A stretch of 64,000 nucleotides of DNA from Fluviicoccus sp. (lineage in GTDB: Bacteria; Pseudomonadota; Gammaproteobacteria; Pseudomonadales; Moraxellaceae): assembly GCF_030646115.1 (NCBI RefSeq), contig NZ_JAUSMX010000002.1, positions 310,001 through 374,000 of the forward strand. The letters are read 5' to 3'. This document shows positions 51,486-62,768 of the stretch, piece by piece (within the stretch, counting starts at the first letter, position 1; each line of letters starts with the position of its first letter). The notes beneath the pieces are model-generated. The model was not told the origin of the DNA. It ran no database searches and was given only the letters and a program-made list of their open reading frames with translations. Position numbers and translations under genes: made by a program.

Positions 51486-54257
51486 TCAGGGAATACAACT
51501 TTGGTTATTAACACCATCCAGAATCGAAGTGACTGTGGTTTTCAGCAGCTTTCCGGCCGAATTGATGCGGTAAGAAATCGAGTTTCCCACCGTATTGGCG
51601 GCAATCAGGCGATCGCCTCCGGCCAGTAGGCTCAAGCTGTCACCGGCTTCTGCATCGAGACTAGCGGTGATGCTTTTGCCATTCAGATTGATCGTGACAT
51701 TGCCGCCGTTTTTGGTCAGCGTGCAGTCTGTGCCGCCGTTCTCCGTTTTGAGGTTGTTGATGCTAAAGTCATTGGTGGTCGTGACACCGCAGTTCTGACG
51801 CAAGGTGGAAATACTGCCGGAACAAGCGTTTTCATTCAGGGTGATGGTGACGCCCGCCGGAGGGGGGGCCACCACATTGCTGACGCTGACACTGTCATCG
51901 GCATTCAGCGTTATGTTCTTATCACCGGCAGTGACCGCCTTCAGCACTGCCACACAGTTGTTGGCGTTGTCATCAACCATCACCATTCTGTTGTGCATGC
52001 CGGTAGCAGTGAAACTGGTGCCATTGAGCAAGTCGCCACGCTTCAACTCGTTCCTGCCAGTGTTACTATTGAAGACGTAGATGGCGGATGACCTGGAATT
52101 ACCACGCTGGTTGATGAAATTCAGACTGACGTTGGAGGTGGCACCGCCGCTGGGGATCTGCCTCCAGGTTGCGCAATTATAAAACTCAACACCGTTTTCA
52201 ATGCGAATCGGGGCATTCGGGTCGACCGCGACCGGATGAATAACAGATCCGGATACCAGCGTCAGCGGTTGGGTGCCAGCCATTCCCGGTTTCGGATCCA
52301 GCACAGTGTTGCTGAAGACGAACTCCTTGTTGTTGACGCCATCCCGGAAGTCAATACCCGTACATGCGCGTTCGCCAAAGGCGCCGCACCCAAACGAATA
52401 ATTCGAGCTTTCAGCCAGTACATTCTTCAGGACACCGTTCTCGTAATTAATGACCAGGAAGCGGATATCAGCATCTGCGGTTCTGAAGGAGTAGGTTTGG
52501 GTGCTGCCACTGGTGATGATCTCGGAAACGGCGCGGGTGAAACCGCAGAAATCATCCGGCGCATTGGCAAAGCCGATCTTGTTGTCAGCACCCTGCGAAG
52601 TACATCCTTGGGTTACGACTGCTTTGGCGAACTGGCCATAGTTCAGCCCAGCCTTGGAGGTGTCAAACAGGTTAATGGCCTGCAGGATACCGGTCGTGGC
52701 ATCGGTCACGGCATATTCAACCGGGCCGTCAGTCCAGTAAATGACCGTGGGGCTGGCGGCGCGGATATTGGGGTTGGACAGGGTCTTGCCGTTGATCGTC
52801 AATTCACCGGTTGCCGAGATATTGCCCGCGACAGTGGCATTATTGGCAAACGGACCACCGGCATTGAACTCGCTGTACTTCAGGTTGTAATTGCCCACCA
52901 ATCCGGCCGGGACGGAAATTCCCCCGCCGCCAGCACCGGCCAGCGTCGTCGTGCCATCGGCATTGAGGGTTATGGTTTTCTTGCCGGTGGTAGTAGCAGC
53001 GAAGATGCCCTTGCACTCCCCGGCGCCATTGGTCAGCAGCCAGGGATGCATCAGGAAGGTGCTGCCTTGCTGGTAGGTATTGCCAGTGGTCAATGCAGTG
53101 CGGTAGCGCACTGACTGGCCGGTAAAGTTGATCCAGTCGATGTTGATGGTCTGGCCACTGTTGTTGACGAAATCGATATCCAGCTGGGTATTCCCCTGCT
53201 GTGACTTTATCCGGTTACGGTCGGCGCAGGCATATTCCGCAATGCCGTTGATGATGCGCACTGGCGTGGCGCCGCCTACCGGCGGAGTGCGGTCCAGCTG
53301 CAGATTGGTGGCGAGGGTGTTAAACAGATTAGTCAGATCGGTCAGTTGTGCCTGCGTCAGTGCGCCCTCGCCCAGCCCCAGCTTAATCGCAGACAGTAAC
53401 TGGGTCATGGCATTTCGCCATGCTGTCAGGAAGACATTGAAGTCGTAAGGAACTCCATCAATGCCGACACCGTTGCGCTTGCCGTCGAGAGCGTTGTCGC
53501 GCGACAAGTCTTCCGAAAGCGCCTTCATCATGGTCAGCGCCGGGGTGGGATCGGCTGCGTTGGCGGTGCGTGCCTGTTGCGCCAGCGCCGCGAGGCGCAT
53601 GGCGTAGTCACGGGCGGCGGCATTGGAGGCGCCGATCAAGCGGTCGCGGTAATCGGTCTCGTCATCCAGCAACACAGGCACCTGATGGACGCTCGCAATC
53701 TTGAACACGCTCTCGATAAAGGCATTGGCCGCATCAATATAATCAGCCAGCGAGCCCGTTCCCGCCAGCGCCAGCGCGCGGCTCACAGCCGCCTCGGTCA
53801 GGGCGGTCATCGCCACCCGGCCCTGGGCATCCAGATCCGCCTGACGGAAGGCGACGCGCAGGGTCTGCGTCAACGGAAAGGCGGGATGGGATTCATCAAT
53901 GCCAGCAGTGGCGGGGTTATCGGCAACCCCTTCATCAAAATAGGTGGTTTGGTTGGTCGGCTCCAACTCGGCCAGCAGCTCCGGGACAGTGGCGGGTACC
54001 TGGAAGGTTACGCTGCCATCGGCGCGAATCGGCAGGCTGTCGCCCAGCGTACCGCGCCGGTCGGCGGGATTGCGGGCATTGCGCAGCACCACGCGGCCGT
54101 TGGATATCTTGCCCAGCGATGGGACGATAGTGACTGATTTCATGGCTACGGCAGCGCCGGGCAGAGAACCGTCATCATCATTGGAATTACAGGCTGTCAG
54201 CCCGAGCGTTGCGGCCAGAATGGCCAAAGTAAGTGCATGCGGTTGTGTAAAGGTCAT
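51486..54257 (-). CDS. Large lipoprotein with VHL beta domains
   Basis: Predicted outer-membrane or surface lipoprotein of 923 residues. The signal peptide ends in the lipobox LTAC with cysteine 23 followed by NSN, not the inner-membrane retention Asp. Residues 30-320 form an N-terminal region shared with the next gene (VVLRNARNPADRRGTL, then helical). Residues 340-430 look like a von Hippel-Lindau beta domain: DWINFTG, 10 residues from Trp to Tyr, then HPWLL. A second, degenerate copy spans about 690-785. Beta-rich regions occupy 445-680 and 800-923. GAGGAAAGGAT precedes the start. Function unknown. Confidence 0.8.
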   Translation of the reverse strand: MTFTQPHALTLAILAATLGLTACNSNDDDGSLPGAAVAMKSVTIVPSLGKISNGRVVLRNARNPADRRGTLGDSLPIRADGSVTFQVPATVPELLAELEPTNQTTYFDEGVADNPATAGIDESHPAFPLTQTLRVAFRQADLDAQGRVAMTALTEAAVSRALALAGTGSLADYIDAANAFIESVFKIASVHQVPVLLDDETDYRDRLIGASNAAARDYAMRLAALAQQARTANAADPTPALTMMKALSEDLSRDNALDGKRNGVGIDGVPYDFNVFLTAWRNAMTQLLSAIKLGLGEGALTQAQLTDLTNLFNTLATNLQLDRTPPVGGATPVRIINGIAEYACADRNRIKSQQGNTQLDIDFVNNSGQTINIDWINFTGQSVRYRTALTTGNTYQQGSTFLMHPWLLTNGAGECKGIFAATTTGKKTITLNADGTTTLAGAGGGGISVPAGLVGNYNLKYSEFNAGGPFANNATVAGNISATGELTINGKTLSNPNIRAASPTVIYWTDGPVEYAVTDATTGILQAINLFDTSKAGLNYGQFAKAVVTQGCTSQGADNKIGFANAPDDFCGFTRAVSEIITSGSTQTYSFRTADADIRFLVINYENGVLKNVLAESSNYSFGCGAFGERACTGIDFRDGVNNKEFVFSNTVLDPKPGMAGTQPLTLVSGSVIHPVAVDPNAPIRIENGVEFYNCATWRQIPSGGATSNVSLNFINQRGNSRSSAIYVFNSNTGRNELKRGDLLNGTSFTATGMHNRMVMVDDNANNCVAVLKAVTAGDKNITLNADDSVSVSNVVAPPPAGVTITLNENACSGSISTLRQNCGVTTTNDFSINNLKTENGGTDCTLTKNGGNVTINLNGKSITASLDAEAGDSLSLLAGGDRLIAANTVGNSISYRINSAGKLLKTTVTSILDGVNNQSCIP

Positions 54258-54356: not shown

Positions 54357-56894
54357 TTAAGGCTTCGTGATCGACTTCACTCCTCCGACACCCACAATAA
54401 TGCTGGAAGAGCCTGCAACTCCGGCAACTGTTCCCTGCTGCCCATTGAGGGTTGACTGGTGTTCAAGTGTCCAGGAGATACCATCGGTGGAAGACATCAT
54501 CATGCGGTTGGACTGACCGTTGTCCCCTCCCCCATAAAGCTTGCTGCCATCCCAGAACACTGAACGGAAGGAATTCAAGGCAGGAGCGTTGGCGACGGCA
54601 TGCCGCGTCCACGTGACCCCGTCCGGAGACGTCATGGTGACGGCGCTGGCGCCAAAGTTAGCATCCGAGGAGCCGACAGCCACGAATTGATTGCCTGCCC
54701 AAACGACATCACGAGGAAGGAAGTCCGTCATGTCGCTGGCAACGGGAGTCCAACCGGTACTGTCATTGCGGATGATCATGCCCCGGAATGCACTGTTGCG
54801 GCCGACGGCGACCCGTATCGCGCCGTTGGCGGCCAATCCGAAGAACTCACTGACAAAAGTAGTGTTGTTGTTGATCTGGCTTTCGCTGACCCAAGTAATG
54901 CCACCGTCTGACGAGGTGATAATAGTGCCATTGGCTCCGCCGGCCGTCAGCAAGCCATTACTGAGCATGATGTCGTTCAGCCGGGTTTCCGGTAAATTAA
55001 CAGGAACATTCCAGGGGCGCGTCGTCCAGGATGTGCCGTCCGGCGAGGTCGCAATCAGGGGCGAGGTCAGGCCTTGATTGAGGCCCGTGCCGCCAACCGT
55101 AATGAATTGCGAGCCATCGTAAATTACCGACCTCAATTCCGGCGAGTTTGCATTGCCGCTGTTCTCCGTAGTCCAGGAAATACCATCCGTGGAGCTAAAG
55201 ATACCCTTGGCGGCCCCGACAACGACAAACTTGCCGTTCCCGAAGGTAATGGAATTCACTACGAACGCACCGGGCAACGTACGCTCAGTCCAGGTATTGC
55301 CGCCACCGCCACCGGCTTGCACGGTGAAATTCCCGGTGGAGTTGTTGGACAAGCCAGTCGTGCTGTTGGTCACGGTAATGGGACCTGTAACGGCATTGAC
55401 AGGCACCTTGACCACCAGCTCGGTCGTCTTGGAGCTGACGATTTCGGCGGCAATATTGTTGCTGAACTTGACCACCATGTGAGACAGGTCTGCGTCAAAG
55501 CCGGTGCCGTTGATAGTCACTGTCGAACCGACGATGCCGCTATTCGGCGCAAAACCGCTCACAGCTACCGGCACGCTCACAACAGCCCCCTGCTTCGAGC
55601 CGAAGTATATCGTGTTCTCCGCGCCGGCAAAGCTCACCCCTTCCACAGACAGCACGCTGCTGTTGTTCTTGAACAGATTGACAGTGGCCCTAGCGGTTTT
55701 CCCCAACTCGTTACGATCAGTAATGATCAGATAACTGGTGCCGTTACTCTGCGCGTTCGGGCCGCAAATTTCTGTCGGATGCGCCATCTGGGCGTCGAGG
55801 GTTACATTGCCGTTGGCGGCAAGGCTGAACGTGGCCGTTCCCGTCTTCCCGGAAGATCCGTTAATATCCACGGTAAAGTTGCCGACAAACTCGGACAAGG
55901 CGGCCGCATTGGTCTTTGGCAATTGCAGGCTGGCGCAGGTAACCGGCGCGACAACCGCATTGGGATCAGGATTGAAATTGAGATTCTGGGCCAGCGCCGT
56001 AAACAGGCTGTTCAGTTCGGTGATCTGTTGCTGAGTCAGTCCACCCTGGATATTGCCCAGCACCGCCGTGACCAGCGCATTGACGGCAGCTGCCCAGCTC
56101 AGGGCGAAATCGGCGGCATAGGGAACGTCACTGGCCGGGAAACCGGCCCCGGCGCGATCCAGCTTGCCGTCAGAAAGGTCGCTGGCCACGGCATTCATCA
56201 TAGCCACGGCCGGAGAGTTAGCGGCAGGCAAGGCATTGTGCGCCTGGCGGGCCAGAGCGGCCAATCGCATGGCGTAATCGCGACCGGCTGGGTTTGCCGC
56301 ATTCAGCAGCTGGTTATAGTCGCTGTTACTGCCAATCAGTACCGGCGCCTGCAAGATGTTAGCGACGCCAAACGCCTGGTTGACCAGCGCATTGGCCTGA
56401 GCAATCTGCGCAGGGGTCAGCACCGGGTCTGCACCGCCGCCGGCCAGGAACTGGGCGCGACGCACAGCGGCTTCGGTCAACGCCGTGATACCCACTTCAC
56501 TAACTGCATTGGCCAAGGTAAAGGCCGCGCGCAGATTGGTTCCAGCGGGTAAAGGCTGATTGGTGCCCGTACCTTCATCAAAATAGGTAGGAACCGGCCC
56601 CCCAATCAGGGGAACCACTTCGGCAATGACCGCCTGGACACTGGACGGGACTTGAAAGGTGGCGCGGCCGCTGCCATTCAGAGGAGCGTCGCCGATCGGT
56701 TGATGGTTGACGGCATTGCGCAACACGACACGGGCGTTGGAAATACGCCCCAGCGAGGGAGCCACGGTAACGGTTTTCAGCGTGGGGGCAGTTGGTGCAA
56801 GGCTGCCGTCATCATTGTTGCTGTTACAGGCGGTAAGACCGCCCAGGGAGGCCAGGATGGCCAGTGTCAGAATGCGGGGGCGCGGGAAAGTCAT
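54357..56894 (-). CDS. Large lipoprotein with IPT/TIG and Asp-box beta-propeller domains
   Basis: Predicted surface or outer-membrane lipoprotein of 845 residues with the same lipobox (LTAC, cysteine 23, then NSNN) and ~300-residue N-terminal region as its downstream paralogue. Residues 440-525 resemble an IPT/TIG immunoglobulin-like fold (SGFAPNSGIVGSTVTINGTG). The C-terminal 310 residues hold repeated Asp-box motifs (SSTDGISW, TSPDGTSW, SSDGGITW, TSPDGVTW, SSTDGISW), typical of BNR/sialidase-like beta-propellers. No catalytic residues of a hydrolase were recognised, so a binding or adhesion role is more likely. Confidence 0.8.
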   Translation of the reverse strand: MTFPRPRILTLAILASLGGLTACNSNNDDGSLAPTAPTLKTVTVAPSLGRISNARVVLRNAVNHQPIGDAPLNGSGRATFQVPSSVQAVIAEVVPLIGGPVPTYFDEGTGTNQPLPAGTNLRAAFTLANAVSEVGITALTEAAVRRAQFLAGGGADPVLTPAQIAQANALVNQAFGVANILQAPVLIGSNSDYNQLLNAANPAGRDYAMRLAALARQAHNALPAANSPAVAMMNAVASDLSDGKLDRAGAGFPASDVPYAADFALSWAAAVNALVTAVLGNIQGGLTQQQITELNSLFTALAQNLNFNPDPNAVVAPVTCASLQLPKTNAAALSEFVGNFTVDINGSSGKTGTATFSLAANGNVTLDAQMAHPTEICGPNAQSNGTSYLIITDRNELGKTARATVNLFKNNSSVLSVEGVSFAGAENTIYFGSKQGAVVSVPVAVSGFAPNSGIVGSTVTINGTGFDADLSHMVVKFSNNIAAEIVSSKTTELVVKVPVNAVTGPITVTNSTTGLSNNSTGNFTVQAGGGGGNTWTERTLPGAFVVNSITFGNGKFVVVGAAKGIFSSTDGISWTTENSGNANSPELRSVIYDGSQFITVGGTGLNQGLTSPLIATSPDGTSWTTRPWNVPVNLPETRLNDIMLSNGLLTAGGANGTIITSSDGGITWVSESQINNNTTFVSEFFGLAANGAIRVAVGRNSAFRGMIIRNDSTGWTPVASDMTDFLPRDVVWAGNQFVAVGSSDANFGASAVTMTSPDGVTWTRHAVANAPALNSFRSVFWDGSKLYGGGDNGQSNRMMMSSTDGISWTLEHQSTLNGQQGTVAGVAGSSSIIVGVGGVKSITKP

Positions 56895-59591: not shown

Positions 59592-60818
59592 CTAGTAAAA
59601 GAACCAGTACGCTACCGCAATAGCCGCTATGACACTGGCCAGATCCGCCAGCAGGCCGCATGCCAACGCCTGACGCTCATGCCGGATGCCGACTGAGCCG
59701 AAATATACAGCCAGCACATAAAACGTGGTTTCGCTCGATCCCTGTACAATGGCGGCCACCCGGGCCGGAAAGGAGTCAACGCCATAGGTCTGCATGGTTT
59801 CAATCATCATGGCGCGTGCACCGCTTCCTGAAAAGGACTTCATGATCGCCGTGGGCAAGGCCGGGACAAACTCCGTGTTCAACCCCATCCAGGCAAATCC
59901 CGACGCCAATCCCCCCAGCAAAACGTCCAGGATACCGCTGGCCCGGAACATGGCGATAGCCACCAGCATCGCCACCAAGAACGGAATCAGATTGACCGCC
60001 ACCTCAAAGCCCTGTTTCGCCCCCACAATAAAGGAATCATAAAGCGGTACCTGCTTGCGCCATCCGGCCAGCAAGAACAGCACAATAATACCGAAGATCG
60101 CCAGGTTGCCAATCAGCGAAGAACGCTGGCCCAGTGCTTCGGGCGGCAAGCCGATCACCAGGCTGACCATGCCAGCCATCATCACCAGAAAAGCGGCCAG
60201 ATAGGCAAACACCACCCTGTCCCACAATTTCAGTTTCTGCACCCAGGCCACGGCCATCAGGCCGGTCATTGTCCCGACGCTGGTCGCCAGCAAAATGGGA
60301 AGGAACACACTGGCAGGGTCAGGCGCCCCCAATTGCGCCCTGTAGACAAAGACGCTGACCGGAATCAAGGTGATAGAAGATGTATTCAGCACCAGGAACA
60401 GTACCTGGGCATTGGTGGCGGTATCGGGATGGGGGTTCAGGCTTTGCAGGTCCTTCATCGCTTTCAGGCCGAGCGGCGTGGCGGCATTGTCCAGACCCAG
60501 CATGTTGGCCGCCATGTTCATCGTCACCGACCCGATCGCCGGGTGCCCGGCCGGCACCTCAGGCATCAGCCGGCGGAACAACGGCGCCAGTACCCATGCC
60601 AAACGGTCGGTCAGCCCGCTTTTTTCGGCAATCTGGAACAGTCCCAGCCAGAAACACAGCACACCGGTCAGGCCGAGGGCTATCTCCACTGAAGTTTTGG
60701 CCGTTTTGAAGCAAGCCTCCACCGCAGACGCCAGCACTTCCGGATGGCCCATGATGGCTTGCCAGATGCAGGAAGCAAATGCGAGCAGAAAAAAGACTGG
60801 CCAGACACGATTGAGCAT
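59592..60818 (-). CDS. Nucleoside-recognition (Gate) domain membrane protein, SpmA-SpmB fusion type
   Basis: Polytopic protein of 408 residues with about nine helices. It joins two Gate domains, as in fusions of the Bacillus spore-maturation proteins SpmA and SpmB: first half GLTGVLCFWLGLFQIAEKSGL and MNMAANMLGLDNAATPLGL, second half AKQGFEVAVNLIPFLVAMLVA and QGSSETTFYVLAVYFG. The start MLNRVWPVFFLLAF is preceded by GGGGAGGTGATC, an exceptionally strong SD, which rules out the 53 extra codons reading back into the DnaA-box region. The transported substrate is unknown. Confidence 0.88.
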   Translation of the reverse strand: MLNRVWPVFFLLAFASCIWQAIMGHPEVLASAVEACFKTAKTSVEIALGLTGVLCFWLGLFQIAEKSGLTDRLAWVLAPLFRRLMPEVPAGHPAIGSVTMNMAANMLGLDNAATPLGLKAMKDLQSLNPHPDTATNAQVLFLVLNTSSITLIPVSVFVYRAQLGAPDPASVFLPILLATSVGTMTGLMAVAWVQKLKLWDRVVFAYLAAFLVMMAGMVSLVIGLPPEALGQRSSLIGNLAIFGIIVLFLLAGWRKQVPLYDSFIVGAKQGFEVAVNLIPFLVAMLVAIAMFRASGILDVLLGGLASGFAWMGLNTEFVPALPTAIMKSFSGSGARAMMIETMQTYGVDSFPARVAAIVQGSSETTFYVLAVYFGSVGIRHERQALACGLLADLASVIAAIAVAYWFFY

Positions 60819-60872
60819 GATCACCTCCCCAAAGGCGGCAAGTGAACCGCAAACAGCGCCAAAGCTCAAGGC

Positions 60873-61123
60873 TGTGGATAACTTGACGATCACCGAGTTT
60901 TCCACAAAATATGTGGATAACCCTGTGGACAAACTGGGGATAACTGGGGGTGGAAGCTGGTTCCGCAAGGCTTTCACCTAGTCTGGTCATTTTTTAACCA
61001 ATATAAATAATCCATTTAAAAACAATAAGTTATTTTTTTCAATAGCGTCACAATCAAATTTCAGCAAGAAAAACAGAGAGAACGCTTGACAGCAACCACG
61101 TCAACCCAAGCACCTGTGGATAT
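60873..61123. other. DnaA-box cluster with AT-rich region, replication-origin candidate
   Basis: The 437-bp gap holds two perfect DnaA boxes on the minus strand (60873-60881, 60912-60920) and four one-mismatch boxes: TTTTCCACA at 60898, and TGTGGACAA at 60924, TGGGGATAA at 60935 and TGTGGATAT at 61115. Five fall within 71 bp in both orientations. Next to them 60989-61044 has only 7 G/C in 56 nt, a plausible unwinding element. This is the architecture of oriC, though dnaA is not nearby. A DnaA-titrating site or a DnaA-regulated promoter is the alternative. Confidence 0.6.
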
Positions 61124-61214
61124 GTTTATATTTTATTCTGAAATCACGTGTTTGCTGAGGATTTAATCTTGTCTGGGCGCGGATTGTTTGTCTTGTCATC
61201 CTGCCTGTCCGTGG

Positions 61215-61243
61215 TTCAAAATAGGCGAAAATAAGCCTATAAA
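61215..61243 (+). promoter_or_regulatory. Promoter of the lytic transglycosylase gene
   Basis: TTCAAA (61215-61220), 17 bp and TATAAA (61238-61243) form a fair sigma-70 promoter. The start site would fall near 61250, only about 6 nt before the ATG, so the message is nearly leaderless, consistent with the lack of an SD. Confidence 0.55.
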
Positions 61244-61255
61244 AGTTAGCCGACA

Positions 61256-61921
61256 ATGACCCGACGTTTACTGTGCACTGCCCTGTTTCTTTTTTCGGCT
61301 ATTCCGGCCGAAGCGGGCAATGTTTACAAGTTCAAGGACGCCGATGGCAACATTCTGTTTACGAATGTCGTTGATGGCAAGACCCGTCCGCGCGGGGATG
61401 ATTTCCGGCAATACAGTCGTCTTGAAAAGGTCACCTGGTACGCCGATACCAATGTCCATTCCTACCATGACTGGGGCAATAACGAAGCCGCCGTGCGTCC
61501 CAGCTTCAGTAAAATGCGCAATGCTTTTGACGGCCTGATTCAAGAGGCCGCCTCCACTTATGGCGTTGACAAAGGCTTGGTCAAGGCCGTGATTCATACC
61601 GAGTCCGGGTTTAATCCGGCGGCAAAATCCGGTCCGGGCGCACGGGGGCTGATGCAGTTAATGCCTGCCACCGCCCGTCGCTTTGATGTTACCGATTCAT
61701 TCGACCCCAAGCAGAATATCCACGGCGGCACCCGCTATCTCAGCTTTTTGCTGGGTCGTTTCAAGAATCTGGAACTGGCGCTCGCCGCCTATAATGCCGG
61801 TGAAGGCAACGTCGATAAATACGGCGGCATTCCGCCCTTTGCCGAAACCCAGGATTATGTCCGCCGCGTGATGAGCCGCTACCGCAAGCTCTATGGCGGC
61901 GACACCCTGTCCATGAATTAA
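61256..61921 (+). CDS. Lytic transglycosylase with N-terminal DUF4124
   Basis: Periplasmic enzyme that cleaves peptidoglycan glycan strands to anhydromuropeptides. The 221 residues comprise a signal peptide (LLCTALFLFSAIPAEA), a DUF4124 segment (NVYKFKDADGNILFTN) and an SLT domain with catalytic glutamate 116 (HTESGFNPAAKSG), GLMQLMPATA and ALAAYNAGEGNVDKY. Complete, with no cell-wall-binding repeats. It is transcribed away from the DnaA-box region and ends at a large palindromic terminator. Confidence 0.93.
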   Translation: MTRRLLCTALFLFSAIPAEAGNVYKFKDADGNILFTNVVDGKTRPRGDDFRQYSRLEKVTWYADTNVHSYHDWGNNEAAVRPSFSKMRNAFDGLIQEAASTYGVDKGLVKAVIHTESGFNPAAKSGPGARGLMQLMPATARRFDVTDSFDPKQNIHGGTRYLSFLLGRFKNLELALAAYNAGEGNVDKYGGIPPFAETQDYVRRVMSRYRKLYGGDTLSMN

Positions 61922-61988: not shown

Positions 61989-62768
61989 TCAGGTCTTGGC
62001 CAACTCGCCAAACAGGGCCACAAACTCCTCCGTCAGCTTGTGCTTGGGGTTGAGATGCACCAGCGGCAGGTTCCGTTGGTGGGACTCACGCATCAGCACC
62101 GAGGATGACAAGTGTGTGTTCAGGATTGGCAGGCCTTCCGCTCTCAACTCGGCCACCAATTGCACCGGCAATGTGGCGCGCGGCTGGAACTGGTTGACGA
62201 TAATCCCCTCCACCTCCAGCTCGGCATTATGGTCGGCGCGGGTCTCCCCCACATTCTCCAGCAACGTATACAGCGCACGCCGGGAGAAGGCGTCACAGTC
62301 AAAAGGTATCAGGCAACGCTGGGCGGCAATCAGCGCCGACAGCGTATAAAAGTTGAAGGCCGGCGGTGTATCGATAAAGATATTGTCATACTGTCTGTGG
62401 ATTTCTTTCAGCGCCCCGGCCAGCTTGAATATCTTGTGCTTGCTTTGCAGCAAATGCTCGATTTCCCCCAATTCGGAATTGGAAGGAATTACATGCAGAT
62501 TATCAAAGCGGGTCGGATGCACGTATTCCGACAACGGCTTTTCACGACCGGTCAGCTTGAGCGTCTGTGCAAAAAACTGACCGATATTCGGCTGCAGTTC
62601 CGCATCGCCGGCGGCGGTTTCCCCCAGCAGATATTGAGTGGCGTTACACTGCGGATCGAGATCGAGCACCAGGGTTTTATAGCCTTCACTGGCGCTGATG
62701 GCGGCCAGGTTAACGGTAATGCTGGATTTTCCGACGCCGCCTTTCTGATTGAAAATAACCCGCCGCAT
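61989..62768 (-). CDS. ParA/MinD-family ATPase, orphan
   Basis: Cytosolic ATPase of 259 residues with the deviant Walker A KGGVGKSS (residues 9-16), switch I/Walker A' DLDPQCNATQYL and Walker B IFIDTPPAFNF. No parB or parS-like array is adjacent, so it may be an orphan ParA that positions a protein or pilus/chemosensory cargo rather than the chromosome. Alternatively it acts with a parB elsewhere. It lies 0.9 kb from the DnaA-box cluster. Confidence 0.88.
   Translation of the reverse strand: MRRVIFNQKGGVGKSSITVNLAAISASEGYKTLVLDLDPQCNATQYLLGETAAGDAELQPNIGQFFAQTLKLTGREKPLSEYVHPTRFDNLHVIPSNSELGEIEHLLQSKHKIFKLAGALKEIHRQYDNIFIDTPPAFNFYTLSALIAAQRCLIPFDCDAFSRRALYTLLENVGETRADHNAELEVEGIIVNQFQPRATLPVQLVAELRAEGLPILNTHLSSSVLMRESHQRNLPLVHLNPKHKLTEEFVALFGELAKT

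Follow-up and report, generated by a model that had tools for sequence, protein, structure and literature searches.

In Escherichia coli, ADP-DnaA is made by Hda and the clamp. The initiator can be recharged at two chromosomal sites, DARS1 and DARS2, where ADP-DnaA molecules bound to boxes I and II contact each other head to head, ADP leaves, and the resulting apo-DnaA gains ATP (PMC4245941, PMC8682772). The published core of these sites consists of three DnaA boxes with equal spacing at both sites and with box I opposed to boxes II and III (PMC5742627, PMC8682772). DARS1 is described as independent of IHF, and DARS2 requires both IHF and Fis (PMC4245941, PMC8682772). Shifting the DARS2 IHF sites outward by 10 bp preserves moderate activity, and a 5-bp outward shift or an inward shift of either 5 or 10 bp leaves only partial activity (PMC4245941, PMC8682772). 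A published comparison of DARS2 covers E. coli and seven relatives, Vibrio and Shewanella among them (PMC8682772), and bacteria other than E. coli have been described, without much detail, as having DARS-like sequences (PMC10380432, PMC4451416). In the parts considered here, the papers on initiator recharging deal with the two E. coli sites.

The locus described here lies in a window of 64,000 nucleotides, which is the whole stretch of DNA that was analysed (C1:310001-374000), from a source genome of 39 contigs. A first-pass annotation of the window had pointed to two perfect and four one-mismatch DnaA boxes, five of them within 71 bp and in both orientations, beside a 56-nt stretch with 7 G/C. 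A recount agrees on the boxes, and the G/C count was reproduced exactly. The two perfect TTATNCACA boxes (60873 and 60912) and three of the one-mismatch boxes (60924, 60935, and 61115) are on the minus strand; the remaining one-mismatch box (60898, plus strand) has no mismatch relative to the wider consensus TTWTNCACA. All six lie within 60873-61123, and 60873-60943 holds five of them. Over the full window, DnaA boxes are not in excess (24 matches versus 27.45 expected), and the five-box cluster is far from chance: each of 60 block-shuffled windows reached a maximum of 1-3 boxes per 71 bp, as against 5 observed. The neighbours named by the first-pass annotation, a Gate-domain protein, a lytic transglycosylase, and a ParA-type protein, agree with Pfam. 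Since ATG 60818, with a GGAGG ribosome site upstream, is the most likely start of the Gate gene, the boxes are taken to be intergenic. Alignment of this intergenic region with the two closest relatives leaves two conserved blocks, namely the three-box core and the AT-rich stretch (Table 1). Elsewhere in the window, two adjacent large lipoprotein-like ORFs on the minus strand (51486-54257 and 54357-56894) have similar N-termini and are perhaps a tandem duplication.

Table 1. Features at and around the DnaA-box cluster, in window coordinates.
Feature	Position	Strand	Basis or remark
Gate-domain membrane protein gene	59592..60818	-	Pfam PF07670
Extra perfect DnaA box outside core	60873..60881	-	Box scan; absent from two closest aligned relatives
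DARS-type core, box I facing II and III, gaps 5 and 3 bp	60898..60932	+	Geometry equals that of E. coli DARS1/DARS2
DnaA box I, TTTTCCACA	60898..60906	+	Box scan; relatives' geometry
DnaA box II, TTATCCACA	60912..60920	-	Box scan; relatives' geometry
DnaA box III, TTGTCCACA	60924..60932	-	Box scan; relatives' geometry
Extra DnaA box TTATCCCCA, 2 bp behind box III	60935..60943	-	Absent from two closest aligned relatives
Fis-type site GGTCATTTTTTAACC, perfect GnnYAnnnnnTRnnC, +87 from core start	60985..60999		Consensus scan
AT-rich stretch	60989..61044		7 G/C of 56; spans all of the IHF-type site and most of the Fis-type site
IHF-type site AAACAATAAGTTA, one mismatch to WATCAAnnnnTTR, +122 from core start	61020..61032	+	Consensus scan
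Extra one-mismatch DnaA box	61115..61123	-	Absent from two closest aligned relatives
Lytic transglycosylase gene (slt), SLT domain	61256..61921	+	Pfam PF01464; common, not universal, core neighbour in the family
ParA-type/AAA_31 ATPase gene	61989..62768	-	Pfam

DnaA boxes beside a stretch of 88% AT are compatible with a replication origin, and the first-pass annotation had entertained the main origin as well as a relocated or secondary one. However, a stronger cluster is found on another contig, where dnaA (C23:115133) is located just downstream of five perfect boxes (C23:114639-114742) in a layout of four reverse boxes followed by four forward ones (perfect or with one mismatch). The GC-skew check that had been proposed gives the same answer: over 50 kb, the skew changes sign at the dnaA cluster (-0.032 to the left and +0.031 to the right), whereas both flanks of the window site are negative (-0.043 and -0.038). 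The window site is thus neither at the skew switch point nor linked to dnaA. Additionally, dnaA is distant from the core matches of five one- or two-contig genomes of the order and of nine Acinetobacter-like chromosomes. An origin of any kind was therefore rejected on the location of dnaA and on GC skew, and its probability is considered close to nil. Further DnaA boxes occur as a double box approximately 4 kb upstream of dnaA (C23:110862-110882; L085 4063-4083), and more clusters with boxes 3 bp apart are present at C14:362317-362402 and at C14:354286-354306 (L084 3987-4007), the latter within the reading frame of an isoleucyl-type tRNA synthetase.

Three boxes of the window cluster have the layout of a DARS core, with box I opposed to boxes II and III at the DARS1/DARS2 spacing. 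The same arrangement (a forward box I and reverse boxes II and III, with successive gaps of 5 and 3 bp) is found upstream of slt in other genera. For comparison, the E. coli cores are TTATCCACT-N5-TGTGGATAA-N3-TGTGTATTA for DARS1 and TTATTCACC-N5-TGTGGATAG-N3-TGTGAAGAA for DARS2, and both are identical to the window core in orientations and gaps. When up to 3 mismatches were allowed, the source genome had a single core match, which is the window site, and no match to the control pattern. Conservation of the boxes in relatives, which the first-pass annotation had offered as a test, proved strongly positive and speaks for a functional site, as the core is kept in 286 of 299 genomes and 14 of 16 genera of the family at the same threshold; the other 13 genomes had no core match at 3 mismatches. 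At the level of the order, the core was found in 81 of 115 genomes (up to 3 mismatches); four of the 115 belong to the family. A reversed control pattern had 0 matches among the family and order genomes listed. So that the spacing was not presupposed, 274 genomes of the class were searched for the exact boxes while each of the two gaps could take any length from 0 to 25. This gave 18 matches in 17 genomes (the source genome included), all 18 with gaps of 5 and 3, and the exact box triple was absent from the other 257 genomes at these gap limits. Mean pairwise identity between families, with one site per family, was 0.78 for the core, a value that results partly from selection by the pattern, and 0.44 for the Fis part, 0.37 for the IHF part, and 0.25-0.34 elsewhere.

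The predicted Fis-type and IHF-type motifs of the window site were followed in two sets of loci. The slt-linked set comprised 31 loci at first and 43 after the addition of 12; L098 (a second copy) and repeats of the window's own site were excluded. The order/class set comprised 66 sites and later 67 with L195; L194, L196, and L199 were excluded as second copies, and L276 is actually a member of the source family. Of the 67 sites, 20 were returned by the order search itself and 7 + 40 were picked from the match lists of the order and free-gap searches; the 47 picked sites were chosen by place only and include all 17 free-gap matches outside the source genome. A locus with two cores was represented by the better one. 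The 66 sites represent 48 families, in 32 of which a site has both accessory motifs. Because the sites are related by descent, there are fewer independent cases than these counts.

When 77 sites were anchored on the core and left unaligned, further conserved columns appeared at +81..+100 and matched the Fis consensus GnnYAnnnnnTRnnC (as quoted in PMC4245941), which places the Fis motif between the core and the IHF motif. At +84..+89, a Fis motif with at most one mismatch is present in all 43 slt-linked loci and in 57 of the 67 order/class sites, and is perfect in 35 and 43 of them, respectively. Similarly, an IHF motif with at most one mismatch is present at +117..+124 in 37/43 and 46/67. Both motifs are present in 37/43 and 41/67 and neither in 0/43 and 5/67, so that at the set limits 26 of the 67 order/class sites, or approximately four in ten, are without at least one accessory motif. 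In most cases the IHF motif begins 33-35 bp after the beginning of the Fis motif. Once loci with a likeness of 80% or more were removed, the slt-linked set fell from 43 to 35, with a perfect Fis motif in 28 and an IHF motif in 29; the 67 order/class sites were unchanged.

Shuffling indicates how often such positions are occupied by chance. In the first slt-linked set, an IHF motif (at most one mismatch) was present at +118..+122 in 26 of 31 loci, as compared with 0.47 on average and at most 3 in shuffles and with 4 in the next best separate offset bin. For the sets of 31 and 66, with IHF at one mismatch and perfect Fis, shuffles averaged 0.1-0.6 sites and reached 1-3 at most. Fis has a loose consensus, and at one mismatch other offset bins reach 8/31 and 13/66. 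Only 9 of the 17 class sites from the free-gap search carry the IHF motif. A composite pattern of boxes II and III, Fis, and the IHF core, with zero mismatch in every part, matched 69 of 369 class genomes (control 0) and was without a match in the other 300; it misses degenerate copies because no mismatch is allowed in any part. In the window site, the IHF-type motif at +122 has one mismatch and the Fis-type motif at +87 is perfect and at a position kept in relatives, as predicted for a site of the DARS2 subtype. The source genome encodes a homologue of Fis (56% identical over 82 residues) and, 19 kb from the site, IHF-alpha. Some order-level sites (L156 and L167-L171) have an IHF-type site at +147..+150, approximately three helical turns farther out than the one near +120, which it replaces or accompanies. 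A second observation is that AAATTG, placed where the Fis consensus begins or immediately ahead of it (+81..+86), is common among relatives and is unmatched in the window site. This sharing exceeds what Fis explains, and an extra protein contact is possible.

The genes flanking the core differ between lineages. With one assembly aside, the closest relatives of the slt product are from Acinetobacter and Psychrobacter, and for this reason the source family (f1) is taken to be Moraxellaceae and its genus g15 to be Acinetobacter. A core lies alongside slt in 13 of 24 slt loci of relatives and slt lies alongside the core in 21 of 30 core loci from the family search; no core adjoins slt in the other 11 of the 24 (one of these is cut by a contig end), and five Psychrobacter slt loci (L010-L014) have no adjoining core. 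In two Acinetobacter-like loci that were viewed, the left neighbour is a PP-loop (TtcA-like) gene, not Gate, and slt is still on the right. In other families the core adjoins 6-pyruvoyl tetrahydropterin synthase (PTPS) and DUF4126 genes, a GGDEF protein gene, or TauE transporter and aminotransferase genes, and in these three sites a perfect Fis motif is at +85 or +86 and an IHF motif at +120 to +123. A function tied to slt was considered and discarded, as the link holds in part of the family and order-level sites adjoin other genes. Since the arrangement persists while the neighbours change, the DNA element and not a neighbouring gene is regarded as the unit.

The same comparisons bear on whether the site could be a promoter region of the transglycosylase or Gate gene, controlled by DnaA, Fis, and IHF, with DnaA recycling not its job. 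It does sit between two divergent genes, and DnaA of E. coli also regulates promoters with double boxes (PMC11317965). However, core, Fis, and IHF keep the same offsets beside the unrelated genes of the other families, and even within the family the left neighbour alternates between Gate and PP-loop. Moreover, paired boxes for promoter binding would presumably need no opposed third box. A promoter role of this kind is accordingly considered improbable.

The first-pass annotation had also suggested a DnaA-titrating site like datA. This was correct as to the kind of locus, a non-origin DnaA-binding site, and not as to architecture, which is that of DARS, with an action opposite to that of datA. 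A datA-like site would titrate DnaA or speed hydrolysis of DnaA-bound ATP, and it is in keeping with this that the window has a strong cluster of DnaA boxes apart from oriC, together with an IHF-type site. In contrast, the essential datA boxes point in one direction throughout and the IHF site lies between boxes (PMC5742627), whereas the window core has DARS spacing, with box I opposed to boxes II and III, and the IHF motif is external to it. The datA-like reading was thus ruled out by box layout and is given very little chance. A separate cluster, just upstream of a Ham1-family gene, has four perfect one-direction DnaA boxes in two pairs with 3-bp gaps (C5:175539-175609; L083 4040-4110), and resembles datA in direction only.

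Overall, the window site is best explained as a DnaA-reactivating sequence of the DARS2 type, in an architectural variant that is new and would recycle ADP-DnaA to ATP-DnaA; on the sequence evidence, we give this reading a probability of roughly 0.8. The core has DARS geometry, and core, Fis-type, and IHF-type elements are conserved at fixed spacing in a lineage whose representative here encodes Fis and IHF-alpha. The recharging activity itself is ascribed by analogy with E. coli, as are binding of the three proteins, head-to-head contact, ADP release, and an effect on initiation. By this analogy, boxes I-III would be bound by ADP-DnaA, and the head-to-head meeting of the molecules on box I and box II would loosen ADP. 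Fis and IHF, at their predicted sites, would introduce DNA bends beside box III and might aid formation of the complex or its action in the right growth phase. Apo-DnaA would then depart, take ATP, and be able to start replication at the real origin beside dnaA. Against this reading, an Hda gene was not found in the source draft genome, in which the Hda model matched only DnaA and one weak candidate; relatives G004, G019, G011, G213, and G215 each have a good match, and the absence from the source genome is either a loss or an assembly gap.

Among the matches listed in a literature search of titles and abstract openings, none dealt with DARS in Acinetobacter, Moraxellaceae, or Pseudomonas or with a core-Fis-IHF order. 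As DARS-like sites have been reported and neither these taxa nor this order were found in that search, the variant is counted as new and its kind as known. Tentatively, and with odds somewhat below even, the compact core-Fis-IHF form may be the widespread and perhaps ancestral DnaA-recharging site of Gammaproteobacteria. If so, E. coli DARS2, in which IHF precedes the Fis sites known there and a long series of additional sites follows, would be a derived rearrangement, and the element would have moved between gene neighbourhoods with its inner geometry kept. The core is present in almost every genome sampled for the family, as well as in many further families, and this provides a natural mutational series of the element. 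The variant would also allow the spacing rules of the E. coli model to be tested in other bacteria, and the fixed positions of core, Fis, and IHF offer a sequence rule for finding DARS sites.

Compared with DARS1, located upstream of uvrB, the window site differs in its IHF-type motif, since DARS1 has none at one mismatch in the scanned stretch; the DARS1 boxes are nearer the search pattern than those of DARS2 (3 versus 5 mismatches). Many g15 genomes, among the matches listed, have one or two more cores (e.g. L189 6372 and L190 6458), of class b beside Usp/O-methyltransferase genes and of class c beside SelO/response regulator genes. Examination of ten class b and c cores found an IHF motif in 0/10 and a Fis motif within one mismatch in 5/10, and these classes, which may be DARS1-like partners, were set aside.

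The likeness to DARS2 extends to the accessory motifs, as in both sites IHF-type and Fis motifs are on the box III side of the core, with IHF approximately 110-120 bp from the core start. When E. coli DARS2 was scanned, IHF sites were recovered at +93 and +109, with 3 bp between them in agreement with the literature; the Fis consensus was matched perfectly at +145 and with one mismatch at +63, +193, and beyond. The order of the motifs differs: the published E. coli Fis sites lie beyond IHF (core-IHF-Fis), whereas in the window Fis (+87) lies between the core and IHF (+122), although DARS2 too has a one-mismatch Fis consensus inside IHF, that at +63. The window IHF motif is also approximately one helical turn farther out (+122 versus +109). 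Beyond the core array on that side, the window site has one more DnaA box, at +217 on the minus strand, and E. coli has one at +211 on the plus strand. The neighbour genes are different, DARS2 being upstream of mutH and the window site between Gate and slt. In nine Acinetobacter-like chromosomes, in all of which slt adjoins the site, the slt-linked site is 0.21-0.23 of the chromosome length from dnaA in eight and 0.30 in one. In E. coli, DARS2 and DARS1 are 0.20 and 0.34 from dnaA, respectively, and 0.21 and 0.33 from oriC. Therefore, DARS2 and the site in eight of the nine Acinetobacter-like relatives share a location about a fifth of the chromosome from the origin.
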